From assembly GCA_000687695.1 (NCBI GenBank), contig JHWZ01000017.1:1-51346 (forward strand): a stretch of 51,346 nt of DNA, written 5' to 3'. The DNA comes from Lachnospiraceae bacterium P6B14 (lineage in GTDB: Bacteria > Bacillota > Clostridia > Lachnospirales > Lachnospiraceae). Numbering within the stretch: position 1 is the stretch's first letter; each line of letters begins with the position of its first letter. A model generated the notes under the pieces. It saw only the letters and a program-made list of their open reading frames with translations. It had not been told where the DNA came from and made no database searches. The translations under genes and the position numbers were made by a program. Shown piece after piece: positions 7,138 to 50,916 of the stretch.

Positions 7138-7986
7138 TTACGCCACTGCCGCTCCGGTCAGCATGAAGTAGAGCAGAACCGCGACACCAAGGATGATCCT
7201 ATAGACACCAAACGCTTTGAAATCATGCTTTCTGATATAACCCATCATGAACTTGATAACAAAGAGCGATACGACGAAGGCAACTATCATTCCGACTCCG
7301 AGTGTGATATAGCCCATCATATCGAAATGAAGTCCGTGCTTAACTACCTTGAGAAGGCTCGCTCCGAACATGACCGGTATCGCCAGATAGAATGTAAACT
7401 CAGCTGCCGCGCTTCTCGCGATACCGAGAAGAAGAGCTCCTATGATGGTCGCTCCCGAACGTGATGTCCCCGGTACGACAGCAGCGAGAACCTGGAATAT
7501 ACCAATGATGATCGCGGATGAAAATCCGATATCCGCAACAGTCTTCATAACAGGGTTTCGTCCCTTGTTCCAAATCTCAACTATGATGAATAGAATACCG
7601 TAGATGATCAGCGCGCCTGCCACGACAAACGCGTTATAAAACAGCTCATCTATCATGTCGTCGATCGTGAATCCGACGATGGCAGCGGGGATGCTCGCTA
7701 CCGCGATCTTTACCCAGAGCAAAAATACATCGGTCTTTATTATGCTCTCGCCTCTGGCTCTTTTTACGAATCTGAACGGCCACAGCTTCGACCAGAAGAG
7801 TATCACGACAGCCATGATCGCTCCCAATTGCACCACCACGAGGAACATTGACTGGAACTCCTCATCAGAGAATGACATGAACTGATTGACTAAGATCATA
7901 TGCCCCGTAGAGCTCACCGGCAGCCACTCCGTGATGCCCTCGACGATTCCGAGAACCAAAGCAACGATTATATCAAATGCACCCAT
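7138..7986 (-). CDS. uppP: Undecaprenyl-diphosphatase (BacA/UppP family)
   Basis: Integral membrane enzyme that dephosphorylates undecaprenyl pyrophosphate to recycle the lipid carrier of peptidoglycan and other wall polymers; it can also confer bacitracin tolerance. The 282-aa protein has the family signatures EGITEWLPVSSTGH near residues 16-29 and PGTSRSGATI in the second half, with about eight membrane segments. The ATG at 7986 (MGAFDI) is preceded by AAGGAAGG at a normal distance; a TTG seven codons earlier overlaps that ribosome site. It is followed by rnhA and is divergent from the lipid operon beginning with another membrane phosphatase. Confidence 0.96.
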   Translation of the reverse strand: MGAFDIIVALVLGIVEGITEWLPVSSTGHMILVNQFMSFSDEEFQSMFLVVVQLGAIMAVVILFWSKLWPFRFVKRARGESIIKTDVFLLWVKIAVASIPAAIVGFTIDDMIDELFYNAFVVAGALIIYGILFIIVEIWNKGRNPVMKTVADIGFSSAIIIGIFQVLAAVVPGTSRSGATIIGALLLGIARSAAAEFTFYLAIPVMFGASLLKVVKHGLHFDMMGYITLGVGMIVAFVVSLFVIKFMMGYIRKHDFKAFGVYRIILGVAVLLYFMLTGAAVA

Positions 7987-8018
7987 TTTTATATCCTTCC
8001 TTTCCAAACAATATAACT

Positions 8019-8047
8019 ACTTTACCACACTTTAAAAATATTATCAA
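8019..8047 (-). promoter_or_regulatory. SigA-type promoter of uppP-rnhA
   Basis: On the minus strand TTGATA (8042-8047) and TAAAGT (8019-8024) are separated by 17 bases, 33 bases before the uppP start. It is back to back with the promoter of the lipid operon. Confidence 0.65.
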
Positions 8048-8053
8048 GAATAT

Positions 8054-8082
8054 TTGCCAAAAACTCTTTCTTATGATATAAT
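8054..8082 (+). promoter_or_regulatory. SigA-type promoter of the membrane-lipid operon
   Basis: TTGCCA (8054-8059) and TATAAT (8077-8082) with a 17-base spacer and an extended -10 (TGA before TATAAT). The leader is about 35 bases. Confidence 0.8.
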
Positions 8083-8124
8083 AATTTGGTATGCGTAAAA
8101 AGCACACGTTTTGGGGGATTGACG

Positions 8125-8835
8125 ATGAATTCATTTTTGAAAAAATATATAGACCCGCTGGTGCCTATATGGGCGCTGGTGCCTCTTTTGTTGTGTTTTG
8201 CCCTGAATTGCGTTGTTTACTGGGTTACCATGGCACTCTGCGGTGACCTGCCTCACTACAATCTGACACTTCCGGTGGACGACAAAATCCCCGTCATAAC
8301 GGGATGGATATTTATATATCTTTGCTATTGTTATGTGTTTTGGGCGTTGAGCTACTGCTACATCGCCAGGACTCTTCGAAAAAGACCGATTGACCTGTTC
8401 AGGTTTGTGGTCGCTGATATGATGAGCAGGATCATCTGCATGTTTTTCTTTATATTTTTGCCGACGACGAATGTGAGACCTGAGATTGTGGGAACCTCAT
8501 TTGCCGATGAGCTCACAAGGTTTTTGTATTCGATCGATCAGCCGACGAATCTGTTTCCGTCGATCCACTGTCTGGTCAGCTGGCTTTGTTTCATCGGAAT
8601 CAGAAAAGAAAAAAGTGTTCCGCTCGGAACCAAGATCTTTTCATGCGCATCGGCGATACTTATCATGTTGTCGACTCAGTTTTTGAAGCAGCATTACGTC
8701 GTAGATGTGCTCTCGGGAGTTCTGCTCGGTGAGCTGTGTTATATCATAGCCCAAAGACTATTCCTCCCGGTATTTATTACACGTTGGTACTCGAGACTGG
8801 TGAGGAAGATAGTGCCGGGCGCGAAGCTTCAGTAA
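8125..8835 (+). CDS. PAP2-superfamily membrane phosphatase
   Basis: A 236-aa polytopic membrane protein of the type 2 phosphatidic acid phosphatase group. The second and third PAP2 motifs are visible: PSIHCLVSW, with the acid-base His, and QHYVVDVLSGVLLGE, with the His-Asp pair. The first motif is not obvious, as is common in the short PAP2_3-like branch. Likely substrates are phosphatidate, phosphatidylglycerophosphate or an isoprenyl pyrophosphate. The ATG at 8125 follows GGGGG at 8113-8117; an in-frame codon at 8086 overlaps the promoter region. It is the first gene of an operon with an LPG-synthase-like protein, pssA and psd, which points to a phospholipid substrate. Confidence 0.85.
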   Translation: MNSFLKKYIDPLVPIWALVPLLLCFALNCVVYWVTMALCGDLPHYNLTLPVDDKIPVITGWIFIYLCYCYVFWALSYCYIARTLRKRPIDLFRFVVADMMSRIICMFFFIFLPTTNVRPEIVGTSFADELTRFLYSIDQPTNLFPSIHCLVSWLCFIGIRKEKSVPLGTKIFSCASAILIMLSTQFLKQHYVVDVLSGVLLGELCYIIAQRLFLPVFITRWYSRLVRKIVPGAKLQ

Positions 8836-20631: not shown

Positions 20632-20675
20632 TATCAGAAAAAATGTGCGCACGCACTTTATAATTGGAGGAAAAA

Positions 20676-21956
20676 ATGACACTGAAAAAGAAACCGACAA
20701 CAGGAATGAGAGACATCCTTCCACGCGAGATGGAGATAAGAGAGTATGTTCTTGACATGATAAGAAAGACATACAAAAGCTTTGGCTTTGATCAGATAGA
20801 AACACCATGTGTGGAGCCTATAGAGAACCTCACCGGTGGTCATGGCGGTGAGAATGAAAAGCTGATCTTCAAGATATTAAAGCGCGGGGAGAAGCTTCGT
20901 CTGGCTGAGGCAAAGGAGGAAGCGGATCTCGTTGACGGAGGTTTACGTTTTGACCTTACCGTGCCTCTGGTAAGATATTATTCGAACAACTCAGCTGAGC
21001 TTTCTTCGCCTTTTAAGGCTATGCAGCTCGGTAATGTTTGGAGAGCGGATCGTCCGCAGAGAGGAAGATTCCGTCAGTTTATGCAGTGTGATATCGATAT
21101 ACTCGGTGAGGCCTCTAACCTTGCTGAGATCGAGCTTATACTTGCCATGACAACGCTTCTCGGAAAACTTGATTTTAAAAACTTTACGATAAGGATAAAC
21201 GATCGACGCTTACTGAAGGGTATCGCAAAGTATTGCGGCTTCAATGAGGATCAGTATGACGACGTCTTCATCGTACTTGACAAGATGGACAAGATCGGTG
21301 CCGACGGCGTAAAGGAGGAGTTACTGTCAGCCGGCTATGCACAGGATGCAGTTGATAAGTGCATGAGTATATTTGCTGCTCAGGATCTGAGTGAGGGAGC
21401 AGACGGTGTGGGAGCGATCGGACTCGACAGGCTTTCAGATCTGGCATCGACTCTCGGTGACAGTCTCGAGGAGGGAGTCAGCGACAACCTTTCAGAGATC
21501 ATGAGTGTGGCAGCGGACAGTTCTGCTACGGAGTTTAAGATCCTTTTTGATCCTACTTTAGTTCGAGGCATGAGCTACTATACCGGACCGATCTTTGAGA
21601 TCGCGATGGATGAGTACGGCGGATCAGTCGGAGGTGGCGGTCGTTACGATACGATGGTTGGAAGGTTCACCGGACAGGACACGCCGGCGTGCGGGTTCTC
21701 GATCGGTTTCGAGAGGATATCGATGTTACTTATGGAGCGCGGATATCAGATCCCGTCCGAGAGTAAGAAGGTGGCATTTTTGATCGACAAAAAATGCACG
21801 GCAGATCAGGTGAGAACCTCGATAGATCAGGCAAATAAGCTTCGAGCTGAGGGGGCGCATGTCAGTGTCATGCGCATGAAAAAGAACAAAAAGTTCCAGA
21901 AGGATCAGCTCACGGAGCAAGGGTTTAACGATATCAGAGAAGTGTTTAATGACTGA
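20676..21956 (+). CDS. hisS: Histidyl-tRNA synthetase
   Basis: Charges tRNA-His. The 426-aa class II enzyme shows the N-terminal KPTTGMRDILP, motif 2 with WRADRPQRGRFRQF, the histidine-binding RGMSYYTGPIFE and the motif 3 segment CGFSIGFERI; a C-terminal anticodon-binding domain follows (about 335-426). The start is the ATG at 20676, five bases after GGAGG; an in-frame TTG four codons earlier overlaps that ribosome site. The stop is only seven bases before a large palindromic element which separates it from aspS. Confidence 0.97.
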   Translation: MTLKKKPTTGMRDILPREMEIREYVLDMIRKTYKSFGFDQIETPCVEPIENLTGGHGGENEKLIFKILKRGEKLRLAEAKEEADLVDGGLRFDLTVPLVRYYSNNSAELSSPFKAMQLGNVWRADRPQRGRFRQFMQCDIDILGEASNLAEIELILAMTTLLGKLDFKNFTIRINDRRLLKGIAKYCGFNEDQYDDVFIVLDKMDKIGADGVKEELLSAGYAQDAVDKCMSIFAAQDLSEGADGVGAIGLDRLSDLASTLGDSLEEGVSDNLSEIMSVAADSSATEFKILFDPTLVRGMSYYTGPIFEIAMDEYGGSVGGGGRYDTMVGRFTGQDTPACGFSIGFERISMLLMERGYQIPSESKKVAFLIDKKCTADQVRTSIDQANKLRAEGAHVSVMRMKKNKKFQKDQLTEQGFNDIREVFND

Positions 21957-21963
21957 TACAATA

Positions 21964-22105
21964 GGGTGTCGCGATTTAATTACATTCGCTCGGGCCCGCT
22001 TGCGCTTAATTCCAAGCGTAGCGGTGCATGGCGCCAAAATACGGCGCCTACGCACCGACGCTTGCAAATGACCCTCGCCGAATGTGAATTAAATGCGCTC
22101 CACCC
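21964..22105. repeat. Structured palindromic element, copy B (after hisS)
   Basis: Outer arms 21964-21988 and 22079-22105 pair imperfectly (GGGTG with CACCC, ATTTAATT with AATTAAAT, CATTCG with CGAATG). The core starts with GGGCCCGCTTGCGCTTAATT (21992-22011), 17 of 20 identical to the corresponding block of copy D. The tip pairs GTGCATGGCGCC with GGCGCCTACGCAC. It fills most of the hisS-aspS gap; there is no coding frame. Confidence 0.85.
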
Positions 22106-22135: not shown

Positions 22136-22181
22136 TATTCTTGAAATTGTGATGTGAGTATTCTTGAAATTGTGATGTGAA
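22136..22181 (+). repeat. Tandem 23-base repeat upstream of aspS
   Basis: Two adjacent 23-base units (22136-22158 and 22159-22181) share TATTCTTGAAATTGTGATGT and differ only in the last base; 22122-22135 is a degenerate partial third copy. They lie between the palindrome and the aspS promoter region. Confidence 0.85.
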
Positions 22182-22228: not shown

Positions 22229-24031
22229 ATGGCTGAATCAATGAAAGGCTTGCACCGCACTTGCAGATGTGCGGAACTTAGTGAGGCAAATATCGGAGAG
22301 ACTGTGACCGTCATGGGATGGGTACAGAAGAATCGAAATAAGGGTGGACTTTGCTTCGTAGATTTACGAGATCGTTCGGGACTCCTGCAGATTCTTTTTG
22401 AGGAGGATAAGATCGGAACAGAGAACTTTGAGCGTGCAGGACATCTGAGAGCTGAGTTCGTTATCGCTGTTACCGGTGAGGTCGCAAAGAGAGGCGGCGC
22501 TGTAAACGAGGATCTGGCGACAGGCTCCATCGAGGTTATCGCCAGAGATATGAGGATCCTTTCCGAGTCTGAGACTCCGCCGTTCCCGATCGAGGAGAAT
22601 TCAAAGACGAAGGATGAGGTCAGACTTAAGCATCGTTATCTTGATTTGAGAAGGCCTGATCTTCAGAGAAATCTGATGTTAAGATCAGAGGTTTGTATGG
22701 AGGTCAGAGCATTTTTGGCAGAGGAGGGATTCCTTGAGATAGAGACGCCGATGCTTACGAAGTCAACTCCCGAGGGAGCGAGAGACTATCTGGTACCGAG
22801 CAGGGTTCATCCGGGGAATTTTTATGCGTTACCACAGAGCCCGCAGCTTTTTAAACAGCTTTTGATGTGCTCGGGTTATGACAGATATTTCCAGATTGCC
22901 AGATGTTTCCGTGATGAGGACTTGAGAGCTGATCGTCAGCCTGAGTTTACGCAGATAGACATGGAGCTTTCTTTCGTGGATATCGATGATGTTATCGATG
23001 TTAACGAGAGGCTTTTAAAGAGAGTTTTTGCCAAGGTCGGAGTGGATGTACAGATTCCACTGCAGAGGATGCCGTGGATCGAGGCGATGAACCGTTATGG
23101 TTCCGACAAGCCGGATACCAGATTCGGCATGGAGCTTGTGGATGTGACGGATGTTGTTGCGGGTTGTGGCTTCGGAGTATTTACGGGTGCTATCGAGGCA
23201 GGTGGCTCAGTGCGCGGACTGAACGCAAAGGGCCAGGGCGATATGCCGCGTAAAAAGATCGATAAGCTCGTGGATTTTGCCAAGGATTTCGGAGCAAAAG
23301 GTCTGGCTTATCTTGCGGTGAATGAGGATGGTACGTATAAATCGAGCTTTGCGAAGTTTATGACGGAGGATGAGCTCGATGCTCTTGTCAAAGCTATGGA
23401 TGGTGAGAAGGGAGATCTTCTCGTATTTGCTGCGGACAAAAATAAGGTTGTTTGGGATGTGCTCGGCAACCTTCGTCTCGAACTCGCCCGTCAGATGGAG
23501 ATTATCGATGAGAGCAAGTTTAATTTCCTTTGGGTAACCGAGTTCCCGCTTCTTGAGTATAACGAGGATCTCGGTCGTTATCAGGCGATGCATCATCCGT
23601 TCACGATGCCTATGGAGGAGGACCTTGAGTTCCTGGAGTCTGATCCGGGACGTGTTCGTGCCGAGGCGTATGATATCGTACTTAACGGTACTGAGCTTGG
23701 CGGTGGATCTATTCGTATCCATCGTGATGATATACAGGAAAAGATGTTTGATGCTCTCGGATTTACCAGAGAGAGAGCTTATGAGCAGTTCGGATTCCTG
23801 CTTGACGCGTTCAAGTACGGAGTGCCGCCTCATGCAGGCCTCGCATACGGGCTTGATCGTATGATCATGCTGATGGTCGGAGCCGAGTCTATCCGTGATG
23901 TCATCGCGTTCCCGAAGGTTAAGGATGCATCATGTCTTATGACGGAGGCACCGGGAACTGTTGATGATGAGCAGTTAAAGGAGCTGGGGCTTGCGATAAC
24001 CGTAGAAGAAAAAGCTGATCAGGCTGAGTGA
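22229..24031 (+). CDS. aspS: Aspartyl-tRNA synthetase
   Basis: Charges tRNA-Asp (and possibly tRNA-Asn). The 600-aa bacterial-type class IIb enzyme has the N-terminal OB anticodon-binding domain (about 1-110, with VMGWVQKNRNKGGLCFVDLRD), the catalytic core with FLEIETPMLTKSTPEGARDYLVP-region motif 1, QIARCFRDEDLRADRQPEFT motif 2, the inserted GAD domain (about 290-400) and GLDRMIMLM motif 3. The ATG at 22229 follows GAGGTG at about nine bases. It ends the rel-hisS-aspS synteny block. Confidence 0.97.
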   Translation: MAESMKGLHRTCRCAELSEANIGETVTVMGWVQKNRNKGGLCFVDLRDRSGLLQILFEEDKIGTENFERAGHLRAEFVIAVTGEVAKRGGAVNEDLATGSIEVIARDMRILSESETPPFPIEENSKTKDEVRLKHRYLDLRRPDLQRNLMLRSEVCMEVRAFLAEEGFLEIETPMLTKSTPEGARDYLVPSRVHPGNFYALPQSPQLFKQLLMCSGYDRYFQIARCFRDEDLRADRQPEFTQIDMELSFVDIDDVIDVNERLLKRVFAKVGVDVQIPLQRMPWIEAMNRYGSDKPDTRFGMELVDVTDVVAGCGFGVFTGAIEAGGSVRGLNAKGQGDMPRKKIDKLVDFAKDFGAKGLAYLAVNEDGTYKSSFAKFMTEDELDALVKAMDGEKGDLLVFAADKNKVVWDVLGNLRLELARQMEIIDESKFNFLWVTEFPLLEYNEDLGRYQAMHHPFTMPMEEDLEFLESDPGRVRAEAYDIVLNGTELGGGSIRIHRDDIQEKMFDALGFTRERAYEQFGFLLDAFKYGVPPHAGLAYGLDRMIMLMVGAESIRDVIAFPKVKDASCLMTEAPGTVDDEQLKELGLAITVEEKADQAE

Positions 24032-24108
24032 TATTTAAGCTATGAAACTTACACGCGAGGGGGAGTTTGCGTGTCGGAATATTTTTCAAAATGAATGGAG
24101 GTAGTAAA

Positions 24109-25152
24109 ATGGCAGTAACAAAAGAGCAGTTCGGAACAACTAAGGACGGTGTGGGCGTAACCAAGTTTACGATCACAAATAAGAACAACATGAGTGTGGC
24201 ACTTCTTGACTTCGGTGCGACAGTACAGGCGATCAATGTTCCTGACAAATCAGGTAAGGTTGATGATGTGGTTCTCGGATTCGATGATGTTGCAGGCTAC
24301 GAGGATGGTGACACCTTCTTCGGAGCGTTTGTCGGAAGACATGCTAACCGCATCAGAAATGCGCGTTTCAATCTCAACGGAACGGATTATGATCTTCAGA
24401 AAAATGACGGCAACAACAACCTTCACGGTGGCGAGCCATGGTATAATAAAGTAATGTACAAAGGTGATACTGCAGGTGATAACGCTGTTTATTTTGAGAG
24501 AGTAAGTCCAAACGGTGAGCAGGGATTTCCGGGCGCTCTTGAGGTGAAGGTTACCTATACACTTACTGATGACAACGAGTTAAAGATCGAGTATTTCGCC
24601 CGCTCTGATGCGGATACTATTTACAATCCTACCAACCATTCATTCTTTAATCTGAAGGGTGAGGGTTCAGGTACGGTTGTGGAGCATTCACTTCAGATCA
24701 ATGCAGATCAGGTTACAAAGGCTGACGGTGAGCTTATCCCGACAGGAGAGTTTATCGATGTCGAGGGTACTGCTTTTGATTTCCGTACGACAAAGAAGCT
24801 TTCAAAGGATATCGATGCCGATGATGAGATGCTCAAGGGTGCCGGCGGTTATGATCAGAACTGGGTTCTCAGAAAGGATCCGAGAGGTTATGCCAAGGTT
24901 GCTACTCTTTCTGAGGAGAGCACGGGAAGAAGCATGGATGTATTTACCGATCTTCCGGGTGTCCAGATTTATTCAGGAAACTTCCTTGACGGCGTGAGCG
25001 GCAAGGGTGGTCATGTTTACAACAAGCGTGATGCAGTTTGTCTTGAGACACAGTTCTTCCCGAATGCCGTAAATATTCCGGAGTTTTTGTCATGCTATCT
25101 GCCGAAGGGGGAGGCGTTTAACTCTACGACAGTTTACAAGTTTAATTGGTGA
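24109..25152 (+). CDS. galM: Aldose 1-epimerase (mutarotase)
   Basis: Interconverts the alpha and beta anomers of galactose, glucose and related sugars. The 347-aa protein has the GalM signatures: GATVQAINVPDKSGK, the FVGRHANRIRNARF strand, NNLHGG with the catalytic His, and NPTNHSFFNL with the second His; the catalytic Glu lies in LETQFFPNA near the C-terminus. The start is the ATG at 24109 behind GGAGG; an in-frame GTG at 24067 has no ribosome site. No signal peptide, so cytoplasmic. There are no sugar genes nearby. The last three codons form part of the left arm of palindromic copy C. Confidence 0.95.
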   Translation: MAVTKEQFGTTKDGVGVTKFTITNKNNMSVALLDFGATVQAINVPDKSGKVDDVVLGFDDVAGYEDGDTFFGAFVGRHANRIRNARFNLNGTDYDLQKNDGNNNLHGGEPWYNKVMYKGDTAGDNAVYFERVSPNGEQGFPGALEVKVTYTLTDDNELKIEYFARSDADTIYNPTNHSFFNLKGEGSGTVVEHSLQINADQVTKADGELIPTGEFIDVEGTAFDFRTTKKLSKDIDADDEMLKGAGGYDQNWVLRKDPRGYAKVATLSEESTGRSMDVFTDLPGVQIYSGNFLDGVSGKGGHVYNKRDAVCLETQFFPNAVNIPEFLSCYLPKGEAFNSTTVYKFNW

Positions 25153-25415
25153 TTTAAGCCAGAACAGCCATGATATATAACGGGATGAAGACGTATATCC
25201 GTGAGGGCACGCTTTCGCTTTTTTCCCGAGCGTCACGTTGTGCGCGCAGAGAAAACTCTACGAGTTTTCAATACCTGCGCTGCGCAACGACGCTCGCGAC
25301 ACATCCCTCACGGTGATATACGTTTTTCATCCCGAAAGCATATATCATTGGCTGTTCTTGTTTCACGCATGAATTGGTACTCATATTCTGGTCTACTGTA
25401 AGTAAATCACCAATT
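25144..25415. repeat. Structured palindromic element, copy C (after galM)
   Basis: Nested arms pair exactly in several blocks: 25144-25156 with 25403-25415 (13 of 13), 25161-25169 with 25350-25358 (9 of 9), 25170-25178 with 25340-25348, and 25181-25189 with 25326-25334. Inside, TATCCGTGAGGG pairs with CCCTCACGGTGATA. Core block GGGCACGCTTTCGCTTTTTT (25205-25224) is 19 of 20 identical to copy D, as is CGACACATCCC (25297-25307). The outermost left arm includes the galM stop codon. The tip carries an extra hairpin (GAAAACTC with GAGTTTTC) not present in B or D. Confidence 0.88.
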
Positions 25416-25457
25416 GTTCCTGCTTTTGTACTTGTGTATATACGAGGAGTATTTTTA

Positions 25458-26720
25458 ATGATAGTGATTAAAAATGGTCATATAGTCGATCCATTTACTT
25501 CAACTGAGGACGATCTTGATATCATTATTAATGATGGAAAGATCGTAAAGGTCGGGAAGGATCTGCCCGCAGGGGAGGATGACGAGGTCATCGATGCGAC
25601 CGGATGTGTGGTGGCACCGGGACTAATGGATGCTCATGTGCATTTCAGAGATCCGGGATTCACTCATAAAGAAGATATCGAGACAGGAGCAGAGGCTGCA
25701 AAGAGAGGCGGCTTTACCACCGTTGTCTGTATGGCAAATACAAAACCTGCGGTGGATGAACCAAAGACCTTAAAATACGTCCTTGATAAGGGAGCAAAGA
25801 CAGGGATTCACGTTCTGTCTTGTGCGACCGTGACCAAGGGGATGGCAGGTAAAGAGCTTGTTGATATGGACATCTTAAAGGCAGCGGGAGCTGCCGGCTT
25901 TACCGATGACGGACTCCCTATCATGGATGAATATATACTCAGAAATGCGTTTGCCAAAGCATATGAGATCGGTATGCCTATAAGCCTTCATGAGGAAGAT
26001 CCTAAGTTTATAGTTGCTCCCGGAGTGAATCAGGGAAAGGTTTCCGAACAGTTGAATTACGGTGGAGCTTCTCATGAGGCTGAGGATGTTATGGTGAAGC
26101 GCGACTGCCAAGTAGCACTCGAGACGAAGGCGAGAGTTTGTATACAGCATATCAGCTCGGCGGTTTCCGTAGACATAGTGAGAGAGTATAAAAATAAGGG
26201 AGCGGACATACATGCCGAGGCAACTCCTCATCATTTTTCTCTGACTGAGGATGCCGTTTTAGAGTACGGTACGATGGCGAGGATGAATCCGCCGGTGAGA
26301 ACTGAGGCCGACAGACAGGCGATCATCGCGGGGCTCAAAGACGGAACCATCGATATGATCGTGACCGATCATGCGCCTCACACTCGTGAGGAGAAAAATG
26401 TCCCGATGGAGAAGGCGCCGAGCGGTATTATTGGACTCGAGACATCGCTTGGTCTCGGTATCAAAAATCTTGTTAAGCCGGGGCATCTTTCCATGATGCA
26501 ACTTTTGGAAAAGATGAGTAAAAATCAGGCGGATTTTTACGAAGTAAAGCCGTGGCCGATTGAAGAAGGCGGAGTTGCCGATCTGGTCATTTTTGCTCCT
26601 GATAAAACATGGAAGGTGGAGGGCTTCGCGTCGAAGTCGGATAATTCACCTTTCCTTGGATGGGAGCTGCCTGGAGTGGTAAAATATACCATTTGTGATG
26701 GGATAGTTTTAAACAAATAG
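25458..26720 (+). CDS. pyrC: Dihydroorotase
   Basis: Cyclises carbamoyl aspartate to dihydroorotate in pyrimidine synthesis. The 420-aa protein is a class I dihydroorotase: metal site DAHVHFRDPG at about residue 60, conserved ANTKP at about 95, further His ligands in HEEDP and HISSA, and VTDHAPH with the catalytic Asp at about 305. The ATG at 25458 follows GAGGAG; earlier in-frame codons lie inside the palindrome. No other pyr genes are in the window. Confidence 0.96.
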   Translation: MIVIKNGHIVDPFTSTEDDLDIIINDGKIVKVGKDLPAGEDDEVIDATGCVVAPGLMDAHVHFRDPGFTHKEDIETGAEAAKRGGFTTVVCMANTKPAVDEPKTLKYVLDKGAKTGIHVLSCATVTKGMAGKELVDMDILKAAGAAGFTDDGLPIMDEYILRNAFAKAYEIGMPISLHEEDPKFIVAPGVNQGKVSEQLNYGGASHEAEDVMVKRDCQVALETKARVCIQHISSAVSVDIVREYKNKGADIHAEATPHHFSLTEDAVLEYGTMARMNPPVRTEADRQAIIAGLKDGTIDMIVTDHAPHTREEKNVPMEKAPSGIIGLETSLGLGIKNLVKPGHLSMMQLLEKMSKNQADFYEVKPWPIEEGGVADLVIFAPDKTWKVEGFASKSDNSPFLGWELPGVVKYTICDGIVLNK

Positions 26721-46544: not shown

Positions 46545-46580
46545 CGAGTCTGCACCCTTTATTAGGTGTGGGCTCGTTTT
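46545..46580 (+). other. Hairpin between flgN and flgK
   Basis: A 12-pair stem (46545-46556 with 46565-46576, allowing G-U pairs) with an eight-base loop is followed by TTTT. It may act as a weak terminator or attenuator that lowers flgK expression relative to flgM-flgN. Confidence 0.6.
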
Positions 46581-46587
46581 GGGATTT

Positions 46588-46611
46588 ATGGGAGGAAACA
46601 TGGGAGGAAAC
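46588..46611 (+). repeat. Duplicated ribosome-binding site ahead of flgK
   Basis: ATGGGAGGAAAC occurs twice in direct tandem (46588-46599, 46600-46611) just before the flgK ATG at 46614. The first ATG opens a 12-codon frame that ends at a TGA (46624-46626) inside flgK. Confidence 0.8.
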
Positions 46612-46613
46612 GT

Positions 46614-48704
46614 ATGGCTAACTTGATGACGAGCTTTTATACAGGAGTATCCGGGTTACACTCTGCGCAGGCGTCACTGAATACGACGTCTCACAACCTG
46701 GCAAACGCCCAGACAAAGGGATATGTCAGACAGCAGGTGTTGCTTTCGGATGCTTTTTACGTTAAGTCCATAGGTCCTTCAGATAACGTTATGATGACCG
46801 GTAAAGGAACCGTCATCCAGCAGACACGTCAGATCAGAAACGAGTTTCTGGACTATCAGTATCGCATGCAGAACGGAAGACTCGGATTCTATGAGAAGAA
46901 TAAAGAGACAGCCATCGAGATCCAGGACATGGTGGGCGAGCTCTACGGCGAGCAGTTCCAGACGGCAGTCACTGAGCTGAAGACCGCCATCGCATCACTT
47001 GCCGAGGATCCCGGTAACATTGTATACAAGGACCAGGTTGTATCTATCGCTTCGCAGTTCGTGGAGAGAGCGAAGGTACTCCAGGATGAGTTAAACAGCT
47101 ATCAGACGAGCCTCGATGTCGAGATCCAGCAGGAAGTAGATAGCATAAACAGTATCGTTAACACCATAAAAGATCTTAACAGAAAAATACAGAAATACGA
47201 GGCGATCGGTGAGCCGGCAAACGACTACCGTGACCAGAGAAATAAACTTCTCGATGACCTTTCAAAGATCATCGATTTCGAGACAAACGAGGAGAAGGAT
47301 GGTACGATCACCATCTTTGCACAGGGACAGTTTTTGCTGGATACGACAAACCAGTACAGACTGACTACGGTTCCTATCGGAAAGTACGATAGAAATGGTC
47401 AGTTGTGGCCGGTTGACGATCCGGATAACCGTGACGCAGGTTCGATGCTCCTCAAGGTAAAATGGGAGAACGGCGGCGACTATTTCACGGATGACCAGCT
47501 TGAATATGACTCGGCGAAACATACTGATGTGGGTACGCTCCGTGGACTTATGGTAGCCAGAGGCGGTCACGCTGCGAAGTACACGGATAACAATGTAGGC
47601 GAGAAGCCGCAGCTTATCGACTATACAAATAAGGTCGATGGCACTACCTACACTCAGGCTGATGCGATCGCTGATTATAATAAGGCGGCAAAAACATACG
47701 ACGAGAGGCTCGAGGCTTACAACAGCTATATCGATCCTTCTATCGTAATGACTATACAGATCCAGATCGACACGATGGTTCACGGAATCGTGACCATGAT
47801 CAATGATACGCTGAGCCCGATCAAGTATGCGACTACAGATGGTTCAGATAACAAGACAAAGGCTATGAAGTATTATGATCCGGTGACAGATCAAGAACTT
47901 GGACCGATCGTGGATGCTGCCGGAAATGCGGTACGTATTTTCGATTTTGAGAATGCATTTGTCGGTGATGATAAAAATAGCACCGCAGGCACCGAGATAT
48001 TCTCGAGACGTGGTATGGAACGCTTTACAAAAGCTGAGCCACCGCAGTATTACAAAGGTAATGATGGAAAAACCTATGAAGTATGGATCTACAATGAGGA
48101 GATCACAGAGGCACCGACTGCAGATATCAAGATGGAAGGTTCTCCGGCAACCGAGGTCACATATAAGACATGGCAGGTTAACGGAAAGAATGTGACGAAA
48201 AAAGAATCAGATATGACTGCAGCAGAGAAGCAAATCTGGCAGGACCAGAAAGATCAATGGAACAAGAGCCTCTATACTATCGGCCAGCTTACCATGAACC
48301 CTGATATCCTGCAGGATTCTTCGAGGATCCCGACCAAGTTCCACGAGAACAGACCACAGGCGGGAGGGTATTCAAACGAGGCTATACTCCAGGTGGTAAA
48401 AAACTTCGAGGAGAGTCTCGGTACACTCGATCCGAACTCGCAGACGGAGTTCGATGTGACACATTACTATGCGGGTATCATCGGAAACCTCGCAACCGTT
48501 TCAAATGTGTGGAACGGAATCGTAGAAAATCAGGAGCTGACGGTTCACAGTTGTGACAACGAACGACTTGATGTTATGGGTGTTTCCGGCGATGAGGAAC
48601 TGTCTGATCTGATCAAGTTCCAGAGGTGCTATGACGCCTCGTCGAGATATATAACGGTTATCGATGAGATGTTGGAACATCTGATAACGCGCCTTGGAGC
48701 ATAA
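46614..48704 (+). CDS. flgK: Flagellar hook-associated protein FlgK (HAP1), first copy
   Basis: Joins the hook and filament. The 696-aa protein has the conserved rod/hook N-terminus (SFYTGVSGLHSAQASLNTTSHNLANA) and C-terminus (ELSDLIKFQRCYDASSRYITVIDEML), which form the coiled-coil D0 domain; a large variable middle part lies between. The start is the ATG at 46614, seven bases after the second GGAGG. It belongs to the flgM-flgN-flgK operon. It ends ten bases before a palindromic element, and a second, divergent flgK follows. Confidence 0.94.
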   Translation: MANLMTSFYTGVSGLHSAQASLNTTSHNLANAQTKGYVRQQVLLSDAFYVKSIGPSDNVMMTGKGTVIQQTRQIRNEFLDYQYRMQNGRLGFYEKNKETAIEIQDMVGELYGEQFQTAVTELKTAIASLAEDPGNIVYKDQVVSIASQFVERAKVLQDELNSYQTSLDVEIQQEVDSINSIVNTIKDLNRKIQKYEAIGEPANDYRDQRNKLLDDLSKIIDFETNEEKDGTITIFAQGQFLLDTTNQYRLTTVPIGKYDRNGQLWPVDDPDNRDAGSMLLKVKWENGGDYFTDDQLEYDSAKHTDVGTLRGLMVARGGHAAKYTDNNVGEKPQLIDYTNKVDGTTYTQADAIADYNKAAKTYDERLEAYNSYIDPSIVMTIQIQIDTMVHGIVTMINDTLSPIKYATTDGSDNKTKAMKYYDPVTDQELGPIVDAAGNAVRIFDFENAFVGDDKNSTAGTEIFSRRGMERFTKAEPPQYYKGNDGKTYEVWIYNEEITEAPTADIKMEGSPATEVTYKTWQVNGKNVTKKESDMTAAEKQIWQDQKDQWNKSLYTIGQLTMNPDILQDSSRIPTKFHENRPQAGGYSNEAILQVVKNFEESLGTLDPNSQTEFDVTHYYAGIIGNLATVSNVWNGIVENQELTVHSCDNERLDVMGVSGDEELSDLIKFQRCYDASSRYITVIDEMLEHLITRLGA

Positions 48705-48714
48705 TACTTGAAGA

Positions 48715-48865
48715 CATACGGAAAGTTGTTGATGTATCCGTACGGGCACGCTTGCGCTTTTTTCGAGAACGTAGCAGTGCATGCGTGCATAATACGCACG
48801 CTACGCACTGACGTTCTCGACACATCCCGTACGGTGATACATTTAACAACTTTCCTGCATATATG
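48715..48865. repeat. Structured palindromic element, copy D (after flgK)
   Basis: GGAAAGTTGTT (48720-48730) pairs exactly with AACAACTTTCC (48845-48855); further in, TATCCGTACGGG pairs with CCCGTACGGTGATA. Core blocks are GGGCACGCTTGCGCTTTTTT (48744-48763) and CGACACATCCC (48818-48828). The tip pairs GTGCATGCGTGC with GCACGCTACGCAC. It starts about ten bases after the flgK stop, and there is no coding frame. Confidence 0.88.
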
Positions 48866-48981: not shown

Positions 48982-50916
48982 ATGCCTTCAACATTCGGAT
49001 CACTCGAGATTTCTAAGACCGGCATGATGACATACAATGCCGCTATTCAGACTACAGCTCACAACATCGCAAATATAGAGACCAAGGGTTACTCCCGACA
49101 GACCGCGAACTATGAGGCTCTCGTGGCTAATAAGAGTGCCATCACCGTTCAGGGATTCGGTGTCGGAAATGTAAATGTGACCCGCGAGCGAAACGAGTAC
49201 TATGACAACAAGTTCATCCGTACTCAGTCCGCTTTCAGCAAATATGATACAGATACATATTATCTTAACGCTCTTCAGGACATGATCTGCGGTAACGTCA
49301 CAAGTGATGACAAGTCAAGGATCATGGACGCTTTTGATGACTTCTATGCAAGTCTCTCAAATCTTGTCGGAAACCCAAATAACCTGACCATCAGAACAGA
49401 GGCTGCGACCAGAGCGCAGACGTTCGCTGAGTATGTCCAGAACATGGGTAAAAATATGCAGCAGTTGCAGGATGAGGCAAATATCGAGATCAAGACGACT
49501 GTAGATCAGATAAACGCCATCGCCGAGAAGATATCATCTCTGAACCGCCAGATAAACGTCATCGAGTCATACGGAAACATGGCGAATGACCTTCGCGATC
49601 AGAGAAGCGTGCTTATCGATGAGCTCTCTCAGTATGCAAAGGTTGAGACGCTCGAGAAAAAAGGTACGATCACGAAGACTAGTGGAAGACAGACCGATGA
49701 GCTTACCGTAGATACTCAGTTCTATGTATACATGAACGGAAACACTCTGGTAGATGGCTACAGGATCAACCATGTCGTATACACTCAAAAAGATACCTAT
49801 ACAAACATAAACGATATAAAGGGTCTGTATGAGCTCAGCTGGGAGGATGGTACAGACTTCCTCGAGCATGCGAGAAATCTTGGTGGAAAACTTCAGTCAC
49901 TTTTTGAGATGAGAGACGGGAATAATTCGACCACTCTCGAGGGGTATGTTTCAGAATATGATGCAAGCACGATAACTATCAAATCAAAGAGTAATTTTGC
50001 ATCGGGCGATGACGGGTATGATCCGACTGCAAACTTTATAAACGACACAGCACTTCTTAATATCCCCACACATGACGGAGAGATCATGGTAAACGGAAGG
50101 ATGTACAGATATGATACATTCGAGGCAAAGTGGGATGAAACAGCTAAGGAGTATACATACGTCTTTAAGATGCATGATACGATCGATACAACAAACGATG
50201 CGATACTGACTACAGCGGTGTCATCAAAGATGACGGTATCAGTCGGCGAGAATGTCTCTGCAAGGGGAATCCCGTATTACTTTGCTCAGTTGAATGAGTT
50301 CGTGAGAACGTTTTCGGAAAGGTTCAATGAGATACAGAACCAGGGACATGACCTCTACAATGAGTTCGGAATCGACTTCTTCACATCCAAGACTCCGACA
50401 CAGGGTAGAGACTATGTGATGAAAGAAGGCGAGCACAACTTCAACACAGCAAATATGGATCAGACTGCGGATGGCAGTTATTACTATATGAACGCTGCGA
50501 ACTTTAAGGTCAGCGAAGAGATGATCGTCGATCCGAAGAAGCTCGCATGCAAGGCAATCGTAAAAGATGAGAATGGAAACATCACCTCGATCGGAAATGA
50601 CAACTGGGAAAATGTTCAGAAGCTCTCAGAGCTTAAGGATGATTCAAAGATGTTTTTGCACGGAGCGCCGGACTCCTTCATCCAGTCGCTCGCATCATCG
50701 ATGGGCGTCGAGTGCATGAAGGCAGAGCACTTGTGCAAAAGCCAGGAGAACCTTCTGCTCGCGATCGATATGAACAGAAAGAGTGTGTCAGGTGTAGACG
50801 AGGACGAAGAGGCTGAGGACCTGATGGTATTCCAGCAGATGCTTTTTAACCAGTACAAGGTTCTGTCCGTAATGAATCAGGTTTTGGATAAGCTGATAAA
50901 CGGAACGGCAGTATAA
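48982..50916 (+). CDS. flgK: Flagellar hook-associated protein FlgK (HAP1), second copy
   Basis: A 644-aa FlgK-type protein, a divergent paralogue of the preceding one. The N-terminus (SLEISKTGMMTYNAAIQTTAHNIANI, with ETKGYSRQ) and C-terminus (EDLMVFQQMLFNQYKVLSVMNQVLDKL) are clearly FlgK; the middle domain differs from the first copy. GGAGGAG lies just before the ATG. It has its own promoter and terminator upstream, so it may be expressed separately. It might form part of an alternative hook-filament junction. No flgL is seen in the window. Confidence 0.93.
   Translation: MPSTFGSLEISKTGMMTYNAAIQTTAHNIANIETKGYSRQTANYEALVANKSAITVQGFGVGNVNVTRERNEYYDNKFIRTQSAFSKYDTDTYYLNALQDMICGNVTSDDKSRIMDAFDDFYASLSNLVGNPNNLTIRTEAATRAQTFAEYVQNMGKNMQQLQDEANIEIKTTVDQINAIAEKISSLNRQINVIESYGNMANDLRDQRSVLIDELSQYAKVETLEKKGTITKTSGRQTDELTVDTQFYVYMNGNTLVDGYRINHVVYTQKDTYTNINDIKGLYELSWEDGTDFLEHARNLGGKLQSLFEMRDGNNSTTLEGYVSEYDASTITIKSKSNFASGDDGYDPTANFINDTALLNIPTHDGEIMVNGRMYRYDTFEAKWDETAKEYTYVFKMHDTIDTTNDAILTTAVSSKMTVSVGENVSARGIPYYFAQLNEFVRTFSERFNEIQNQGHDLYNEFGIDFFTSKTPTQGRDYVMKEGEHNFNTANMDQTADGSYYYMNAANFKVSEEMIVDPKKLACKAIVKDENGNITSIGNDNWENVQKLSELKDDSKMFLHGAPDSFIQSLASSMGVECMKAEHLCKSQENLLLAIDMNRKSVSGVDEDEEAEDLMVFQQMLFNQYKVLSVMNQVLDKLINGTAV

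Follow-up and report, generated by a model that had tools for sequence, protein, structure and literature searches.

A large family of interspersed nested-hairpin repeats in Lachnospiraceae, possibly maintained at the DNA level

The window analyzed here is a stretch of 51,346 nucleotides from Lachnospiraceae bacterium P6B14 (contig JHWZ01000017.1, forward strand). Three gaps between its genes hold structured elements, designated copies B, C, and D, which the original prediction, made from the letters alone, had grouped as an intergenic family with a shared asymmetric core and compensated stem changes. The elements, their parts, and their neighbors (gene families from Pfam for copies C and D) are as follows:

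21964-22105, plus strand: copy B, of the subtype with GGGCCCGCTTGCGCTTAATT; model match 21966-22101; hisS (ORF 20664-21956) lies upstream and aspS (22229-24031) downstream
25144-25415, plus strand: copy C, with a long imperfect outer stem; model match 25177-25336; an aldose-1-epimerase-family gene (24067-25152) lies before it and an amidohydrolase-family gene (ORF 25374-26720, probable ATG at 25458) after it
25208-25224, plus strand: 5' side of the asymmetric internal loop of copy C, CACGCTTTCGCTTTTTT, with a 2-bp mini-hairpin inside (alignment A1, columns 32-48)
25299-25304, plus strand: 3' side of the same loop, ACACAT (alignment A1)
48716-48857, plus strand: copy D, a full canonical element between a FlgK-like-domain gene (46566-48704) and a second FlgK-like gene (48982-50916)
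48747-48763, plus strand: 5' side of the asymmetric loop of copy D, CACGCTTGCGCTTTTTT
48789-48795, plus strand: terminal loop of copy D, ATAATAC (family consensus AAAATAC)
48820-48825, plus strand: 3' side of the asymmetric loop of copy D, ACACAT

The sequence blocks on which the grouping was based are present as described: GGGCACGCTTGCGCTTTTTT differs by one base between copies C and D and by three between D and B, CGACACATCCC is found in both C and D, and TATCCGT with ACGGTGATA frames the cores of C and D, with GA opposite TC in the former and AC opposite GT in the latter. The tips are compensated as well, pairing GCGTGC with GCACGC in D and GGCGCC with GGCGCC in B. All three copies fold far more stably than their dinucleotide shuffles, with z scores of -13.5 (C), -10.2 (D), and -5.9 (B). 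We built a covariance model (R1) from 26 full-length copies lacking tip insertions (alignment A1) and searched the window with it, which returned exactly the three copies, at 95 bits for B (E 2.4e-30), 134.2 bits for C, and 147.4 bits for D (E 1.1e-48). Upstream of aspS, at 22136-22181, the window also contains a 23-bp tandem duplication that is single-copy in one of the two close sister genomes used below (G048; the other is G002).

When the 2.69-Mb genome from which the window derives (G000) was searched with R1, 61 copies were obtained, after two weak antisense readings of copies already counted were removed from 63 rows. A truncated copy (L018; L numbers denote loci) and a chance match (L039) were left out of folding and alignment, and eight copies with tip insertions (length at least 160) were left out of A1. 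A simple search for the 18-base core, allowing as many as three mismatches, finds 36 occurrences in this genome, compared with one for the reversed pattern, and a single 235-kb sequence (C3, ca. 9% of the genome) carries 15 of the 61 copies. Within the genus, 19 of 39 genomes have R1 matches, the richest having 61, 59, 54, 23, and 19; the figures of 59 (G048) and 54 (G002) are raw matches that may include antisense doubles. Thus, many more copies exist in the genome and in its relatives, and the three in the window are part of a set of interspersed repeats common to many relatives, not a local set of three.

At the level of the taxonomic family, 68 of the 299 genomes sampled gave R1 matches with E up to 0.001, the weakest being close to the threshold; counts per genome at this level are lower bounds (ten candidates per genome were scored). 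We inspected alignments of 32 matches from the 29 best other family genomes (alignment A4, hereafter the wider family) and built a second model, R2, from them. A class-wide sample searched with R2 gave 11 positives among 391 genomes, all 11 in the same taxonomic family. This clustering is a rough check on the specificity of the models, standing in for palindrome decoys, and within the genomes sampled the element is restricted to a single clostridial family, probably the Lachnospiraceae. Database records with the exact core that also match the model come from an uncultured Lachnospiraceae bacterium, Clostridiales RUG381, and Eubacterium sp. RGIG3472 (goat rumen), and exact-core records from other groups are loci without a model match. 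In one genome, four similar members form a direct tandem with a period of ca. 165 bp (L250:3115-3747, G163:C59:125114-125746). A phage or viral origin was considered and rejected: ten viral contigs contain a 17-base core pattern and none of them matched the covariance model, the family-level core pattern had no viral matches, and one wider-family member gave a single weak, partial phage match (E 0.01). A plasmid origin fared no better, as copy D had no plasmid match.

The original prediction had recognized no named family, and Rfam release 15 agrees, with no match above the gathering threshold in the window or in 20 other sources that hold members; two rows near copy C are at chance level and below threshold. 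A repeat matched in 68 of the 298 genera sampled from one bacterial family of gut and rumen thus has no Rfam match. Among mostly freely accessible papers dealing with repeats of Lachnospiraceae or clostridia, with interspersed palindromes, or with cruciforms, we found no title or abstract that describes the element; a survey of structured RNAs in the human microbiome reports 250 palindromic candidates (PMC8040213), among which the present element may or may not be included.

The unit is ca. 140 nt long and consists of nested stems interrupted by a 17x6 asymmetric loop and bulges and closed by a tip loop like AAAATAC; this structure was derived from pairability in A1 and is given in A1 columns. 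The outermost stem, P1, has about 10 bp, is private to each site, and often extends past the model. A small 1x2 loop joins it to P2 (7 bp), and an extrahelical 2-nt bulge on the 3' side, GT in many copies, separates P2 from P3, which has 8 bp and mostly ends in GGG/CCC. The asymmetric loop follows, with CACGCTTNCGCTTTTTT opposite ACACAT and a two-pair mini-hairpin in which GT..AC replaces GC..GC in a few distant members. Beyond it lie P4 (9 bp), a 2-nt bulge, P5 and P6 (together 14 bp, interrupted by a single bulge), and a terminal loop that approximates AAAATAC; 8 of 34 copies have a further small hairpin inserted at the tip. When scored with loose patterns, the asymmetric-loop motif is present in all 32 and the tip loop in 29 of the 32 members from the 29 inspected genomes, and in 51 and 46, respectively, of the 61 copies in G000. 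Truncated half-elements occur in three genomes (L018, L117, L087, L285, and L306), most of them interrupted close to the tip of the hairpin. G048 also contains a different, unrelated nested-hairpin repeat with the core TGTGAGCTTTT..AAAACTCAC (L287:877 and L112:2457), which at L287 occupies the place of a G000 family member.

Covariation in these stems is very strong. In A1, 88.9% of 1243 cells are paired, and both sides change in 39 of 48 pairs, giving 310 such cells against 99 +/- 9 in shuffled alignments and 61-85 in a control with slid partners. The corresponding values for A4, an alignment fitted to the model and hence leaning towards it, are 47 of 48 pairs and 593 cells against 181 +/- 11. 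The effect is most extreme in P1, which is 97.5% paired in A4 and has all four Watson-Crick pairs at each of its ten positions. The number of further pair types in A4 is not above the shuffles (68 of 500 reach the value). Because the inner part of the element is contiguous, an exchange carries both arms together; part of the covariation between copies is therefore inherited in blocks, and the cells are not independent events. With this qualification, the shape is conserved largely independently of sequence, by compensation that is mostly Watson-Crick, and the prediction of an intergenic family whose members share an asymmetric core and compensated stems is borne out both by the further copies and by pair changes far above shuffles.

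Selection on RNA, selection on folded DNA, and template switching could each produce such covariation, and covariation statistics alone cannot separate them, which makes the repeat a natural test of where covariation comes from. From the sequence comparisons, we give roughly even weight, or slightly better, to the proposal that these nested hairpins form a large family of interspersed repeats that is kept up and reshuffled as DNA, with a core read by a putative protein. The main rival to this DNA-level reading is a structured RNA of 3' untranslated or intercistronic regions (serving, for example, in protection of mRNA from exonucleases or in protein binding) that old duplications spread and that selection on the RNA fold has since preserved. 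We consider this rival rather unlikely, albeit the best of the alternatives; retention of the asymmetric loop and tip loop in the wider family, scored as loose motifs, is consistent with it, whereas the lack of a matching Rfam family counts against it. Another explanation, that the elements are passive quasi-palindromes, leftover repeats recognized by nothing and kept complementary only by template switching and gene conversion, seems to us improbable.

The gene context of the elements offers some support to the RNA reading. With genes called by a simple longest-ORF rule, 37 of the 61 copies in G000 lie in sense and 15 in antisense between same-direction genes, 7 have convergent and 1 divergent neighbors, and 1 has neighbors of unassigned arrangement (36, 14, 8, 2, and 1 under other ORF limits). 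The plus-strand row of L051 and three duplicate locus ids were dropped both from these orientation counts and from the same-site comparison below. A gene ends upstream in the same direction for 44 of 60 copies, at a median of 16 nt from stop codon to model match. A sense bias just downstream of stop codons would suit an RNA and counts against the DNA reading; however, sense and antisense are equal in the wider family (11 and 11 of 32, with 5 convergent and 2 divergent), which counts against an RNA. Relatives gave 30 sense, 21 antisense, 11 convergent, and 5 divergent placements (n=74), and the mixture of orientations across the three sets favors the DNA reading. Alignment with the locally G-rich strand, seen for 40 of the 61 copies, is confounded with gene direction. 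Several convergent pairs of elements lie ca. 150-350 bp apart. At one locus (L135, ca. 7195-8265), a 357-aa open frame resembling a tyrosine recombinase starts ca. 37 nt from a G000 element, and a similar match lies near elements in G048:C2. Intrinsic or bidirectional transcription terminators would fit the position just 3' of stop codons and the excess of convergent over divergent gaps (7 vs 1 in G000), but we regard them as extremely improbable and reject the intrinsic form, as T runs after the outer stem are not above background (6/60 in G000 vs 3-7/60 in windows further on; 3/31 in the wider family vs 0-5/31) and a terminator-like hairpin, separate from the element, lies beyond copy D.

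The mismatches bear on the same question. RNA helices usually contain several times as many G-U as A-C pairs; our own tRNA control is tiny (2 tRNAs, 46 pairs, 6 G-T, 0 A-C). Over whole alignments, G-T and A-C cells number 62 and 68 of 2790 among 60 distinct G000 copies, 66 and 74 of 3513 in relatives, and 22 and 23 of 1491 in the wider family, an equality that owes much to a single fixed A-C position; other mismatches number 164, 170, and 104, respectively. In the inner stems, counted after exclusion of two fixed positions (one U-G, one A-C), G000 has 0 G-T and 5 A-C among 1223 cells, relatives have 15 and 14 of 1522, and the wider family has 7 and 8 of 706. P1 of the wider family, moreover, has 5 G-T among ca. 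310 paired cells. This scarcity of G-T argues against selection on an RNA fold. In contrast, the outer stems P1-P2 of G000 show an excess of G-T over A-C (41 vs 15 of 998 cells), which is the expectation under RNA selection and counts against the DNA reading; relatives show 28 vs 17 and the wider family 9 vs 14, although the model-fitted alignment itself favors G-T. We count the inner stems and the wider family in favor of pairing being judged or copied in DNA, a sign that the outer stems of the G000 copies do not carry.

We compared the elements at orthologous positions in the sister genomes, using a same-site set of 48 from which L121:201 (the same site as L274), intervals with two G000 elements (L105 and L080), and two repeat rows of L108 were dropped. 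Opposite orientation was found in 6 of these 48 comparisons, in which some sites are counted more than once. At least three are clean inversions of the hairpin within the same outer stem: window copy C relative to L088 (G002), L157 relative to L122 (G048), and L160 relative to L112 (G048). For copy C, the whole hairpin is inverted in place in G002 and has a different inner module. As to the other cases, L162/L299 is similar, L140/L274 differs in sequence too, and L146/L085 is probably a different element. Inversion of the hairpin in place argues against the RNA reading. Together with the scarcity of G-T intermediates, it is a discriminating mark that could be sought in other supposed structured-RNA families.

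Stem changes between orthologues were scored in 32 pair comparisons, which include two rows that pair L142 with its neighboring element, one deliberate cross-site row, and two rows (marked G002x) that pair neighboring sites. In 15 of the 32 rows, at most one of the 48 pairs differs, and seven of the eight single changes among them are one-sided; the remaining rows have 4 to 17 compensated changes, except one with 2. Copy B is unchanged in G048 at all 44 pairs compared. At the orthologous sites L138 vs L053 and L072, the structure is kept at ca. 80% flank identity, which would be expected of a structured RNA. Elsewhere, the inner module has been swapped under an almost unchanged outer stem (copy C/L088, L134:2216/L084:5083, L137/L082, and L156/L100). 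The same modularity is evident within G000, where the 61 copies comprise 55 distinct outer stems (P1-P3), 30 P4 modules, and 25 tips: 12 different outer stems enclose the commonest P4, ATCATACGT/ACGTATGAT, and none of the 11 recurrent tips is limited to a single P4. At two sites 1.9 kb apart, element types seem to have been exchanged between G000 and G002 (L145:2014 and 3912 vs L114:595 and 2377).

The presence of elements varies as well. We looked up 20 further G000 loci in G048 and G002, chosen from 31 sites without a paired sister element, a choice that favors absence. The 38 sister loci retrieved include four at contig edges, and 17 of the remaining 34 contain an element recognized by R1. 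Among those without one are bare outer hairpins (L275 and L289), half elements (L285 and L306), a clean absence (L286), and the unrelated hairpin (L287). The hisS-aspS gap of G002 likewise has only a short bare palindrome at the position of copy B, and a bare outer hairpin occurs at a second L146 position in G000. These last two at first resembled empty insertion targets, but that reading was undercut by copy D, which in G048 has suffered an apical deletion that leaves only P1, P2, and the extrahelical bulge and keeps element-specific bases; at L146, both G048 and G002 are filled, so that the bare hairpins may be either empty targets or remnants. An 8-bp direct repeat at one site (L141 vs L275) is equally readable as a slippage deletion. 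Among the sister loci compared, we found no clean insertion with a target-site duplication and no general pattern of this kind, and several empty sites look like deletions. Thus, losses are clear, whereas gains are inferred only from dispersal.

That presence varies between sisters, albeit in a sample biased to absence, would suit passive palindromes, as would the occurrence here of both arm homogenization and spacer inversion, which are reported outcomes of template switching. However, the unpaired asymmetric core and the tip loop are kept across 29 inspected genera, and passive copying would erase them.

In the DNA-level proposal that we prefer, the preserved feature would be the shape of one DNA strand folded as a hairpin or cruciform. 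Complementarity of the arms would be upheld by template switching during replication, in which copying proceeds across the folded hairpin and may also invert spacers, and central tracts would be exchanged between copies by recombination. Template switching and recombination together would yield the Watson-Crick compensation, the inversions, the exchange of blocks, and the apical deletions. They do not explain an asymmetric unpaired core kept over many genera; template switching across the whole hairpin would in fact erase the asymmetry, so that selection on the core must be assumed too. We therefore add recognition of the folded DNA by a putative protein, most simply the dispersal machinery, to which retention of the asymmetric loop, bulge, and tip might be ascribed; no host benefit is required. 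The predominance of one-sided changes in near-identical orthologues counts against the proposal, as it means that the arms are not corrected at once. So do the number of pair types in A4, the lack of a clean insertion among the sister loci, and the failure to find either of two mobilizing enzymes, Y1 transposase and integron integrase, in the ten copy-rich genus genomes (see below). The original description of a conserved folded nucleic acid stands, with a refinement: inner-stem G-T scarcity, in-place inversions, and module swaps point, not conclusively, to DNA rather than RNA.

Several known systems share features with this repeat. Miniature inverted-repeat transposable elements (MITEs) are short, non-coding, dispersed, and palindromic, with conserved terminal inverted repeats. 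The present repeat has the first four properties but lacks conserved terminal inverted repeats, the outer stems being nearly all distinct, and we reject a classical MITE on the grounds that the ends are not shared. The REP/BIME repeats of the GTAG and CGTC super-families are described as intergenic, mostly 3' of coding regions in co-directional or convergent gaps, and often in opposite-orientation pairs, and the individual REPs as 20-40 bp palindromes with an end tag (PMC3733652); in a word search, the main text of that paper contains neither Clostridi- nor Firmicutes. Like them, the present elements are intergenic, often downstream of genes, and partly in opposite-orientation pairs; unlike them, the unit is ca. 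140 nt, with freely varying, private outer stems. With regard to the unpaired GTAG or CGTC tag at one end of a REP, many members carry CGTAGCGG..CCGACG in the interior of the core, away from the ends, and in G000 CGTCACG frequently takes its place. Mobilization of the IS200/RAYT kind was rejected, as the Y1 transposase (PF01797) matches 10 of the 39 genus genomes, the assemblies being incomplete, and none of the ten with at least eight R1 matches.

Mobile double-hairpin elements of fungal mitochondria, mentioned in PMC5910586, are also dispersed hairpin repeats proposed to be mobile. They are organellar, and relatedness to the present repeat is without support. Template switching between inverted repeats is described as causing arm homogenization and spacer inversion (PMC8604942) and loop inversions (PMC8794818). 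It is a mutation process rather than a repeat family, with complementary arms and inverted spacers as the shared features; the inversions described in passages of PMC8794818 and PMC8604942 involve a few bases, whereas those seen here involve ca. 100.

A further analogy is the integron attC site, which is described as a folded single-stranded DNA that is recognized through a kept shape despite variable sequence, with an unpaired spacer, extrahelical bases, and a variable tip (PMC2727003). The present element resembles it in its conserved shape, its variable sequence, and these three structural features, but its copies are dispersed singly and do not form cassette arrays. attC sites carry an R box, GTTRRRY, near the outer end. 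This motif occurs within the outer 40 nt of 2 of 61 copies in G000 and 2 of 32 in the wider family, and the integron integrase (TIGR02249) was above the cut-off in none of ten copy-rich genus genomes, with weak matches in 9 of the 10 and in 14 of 14 controls; with neither integrase nor R box found, an integron attC proper was rejected. By analogy, the element might nonetheless be the substrate of a new folded-ssDNA recombination or transposition system of this bacterial family, unrelated in origin to that of attC, in which a candidate protein would bind the core and tip and swap, invert, and move the modules, a bolder idea to which we assign a small probability. Were such a system real, shape and not sequence would be what is inherited, and if a protein does read the folded core, a new folded-DNA recombination system, comparable in principle to attC, would be within reach.
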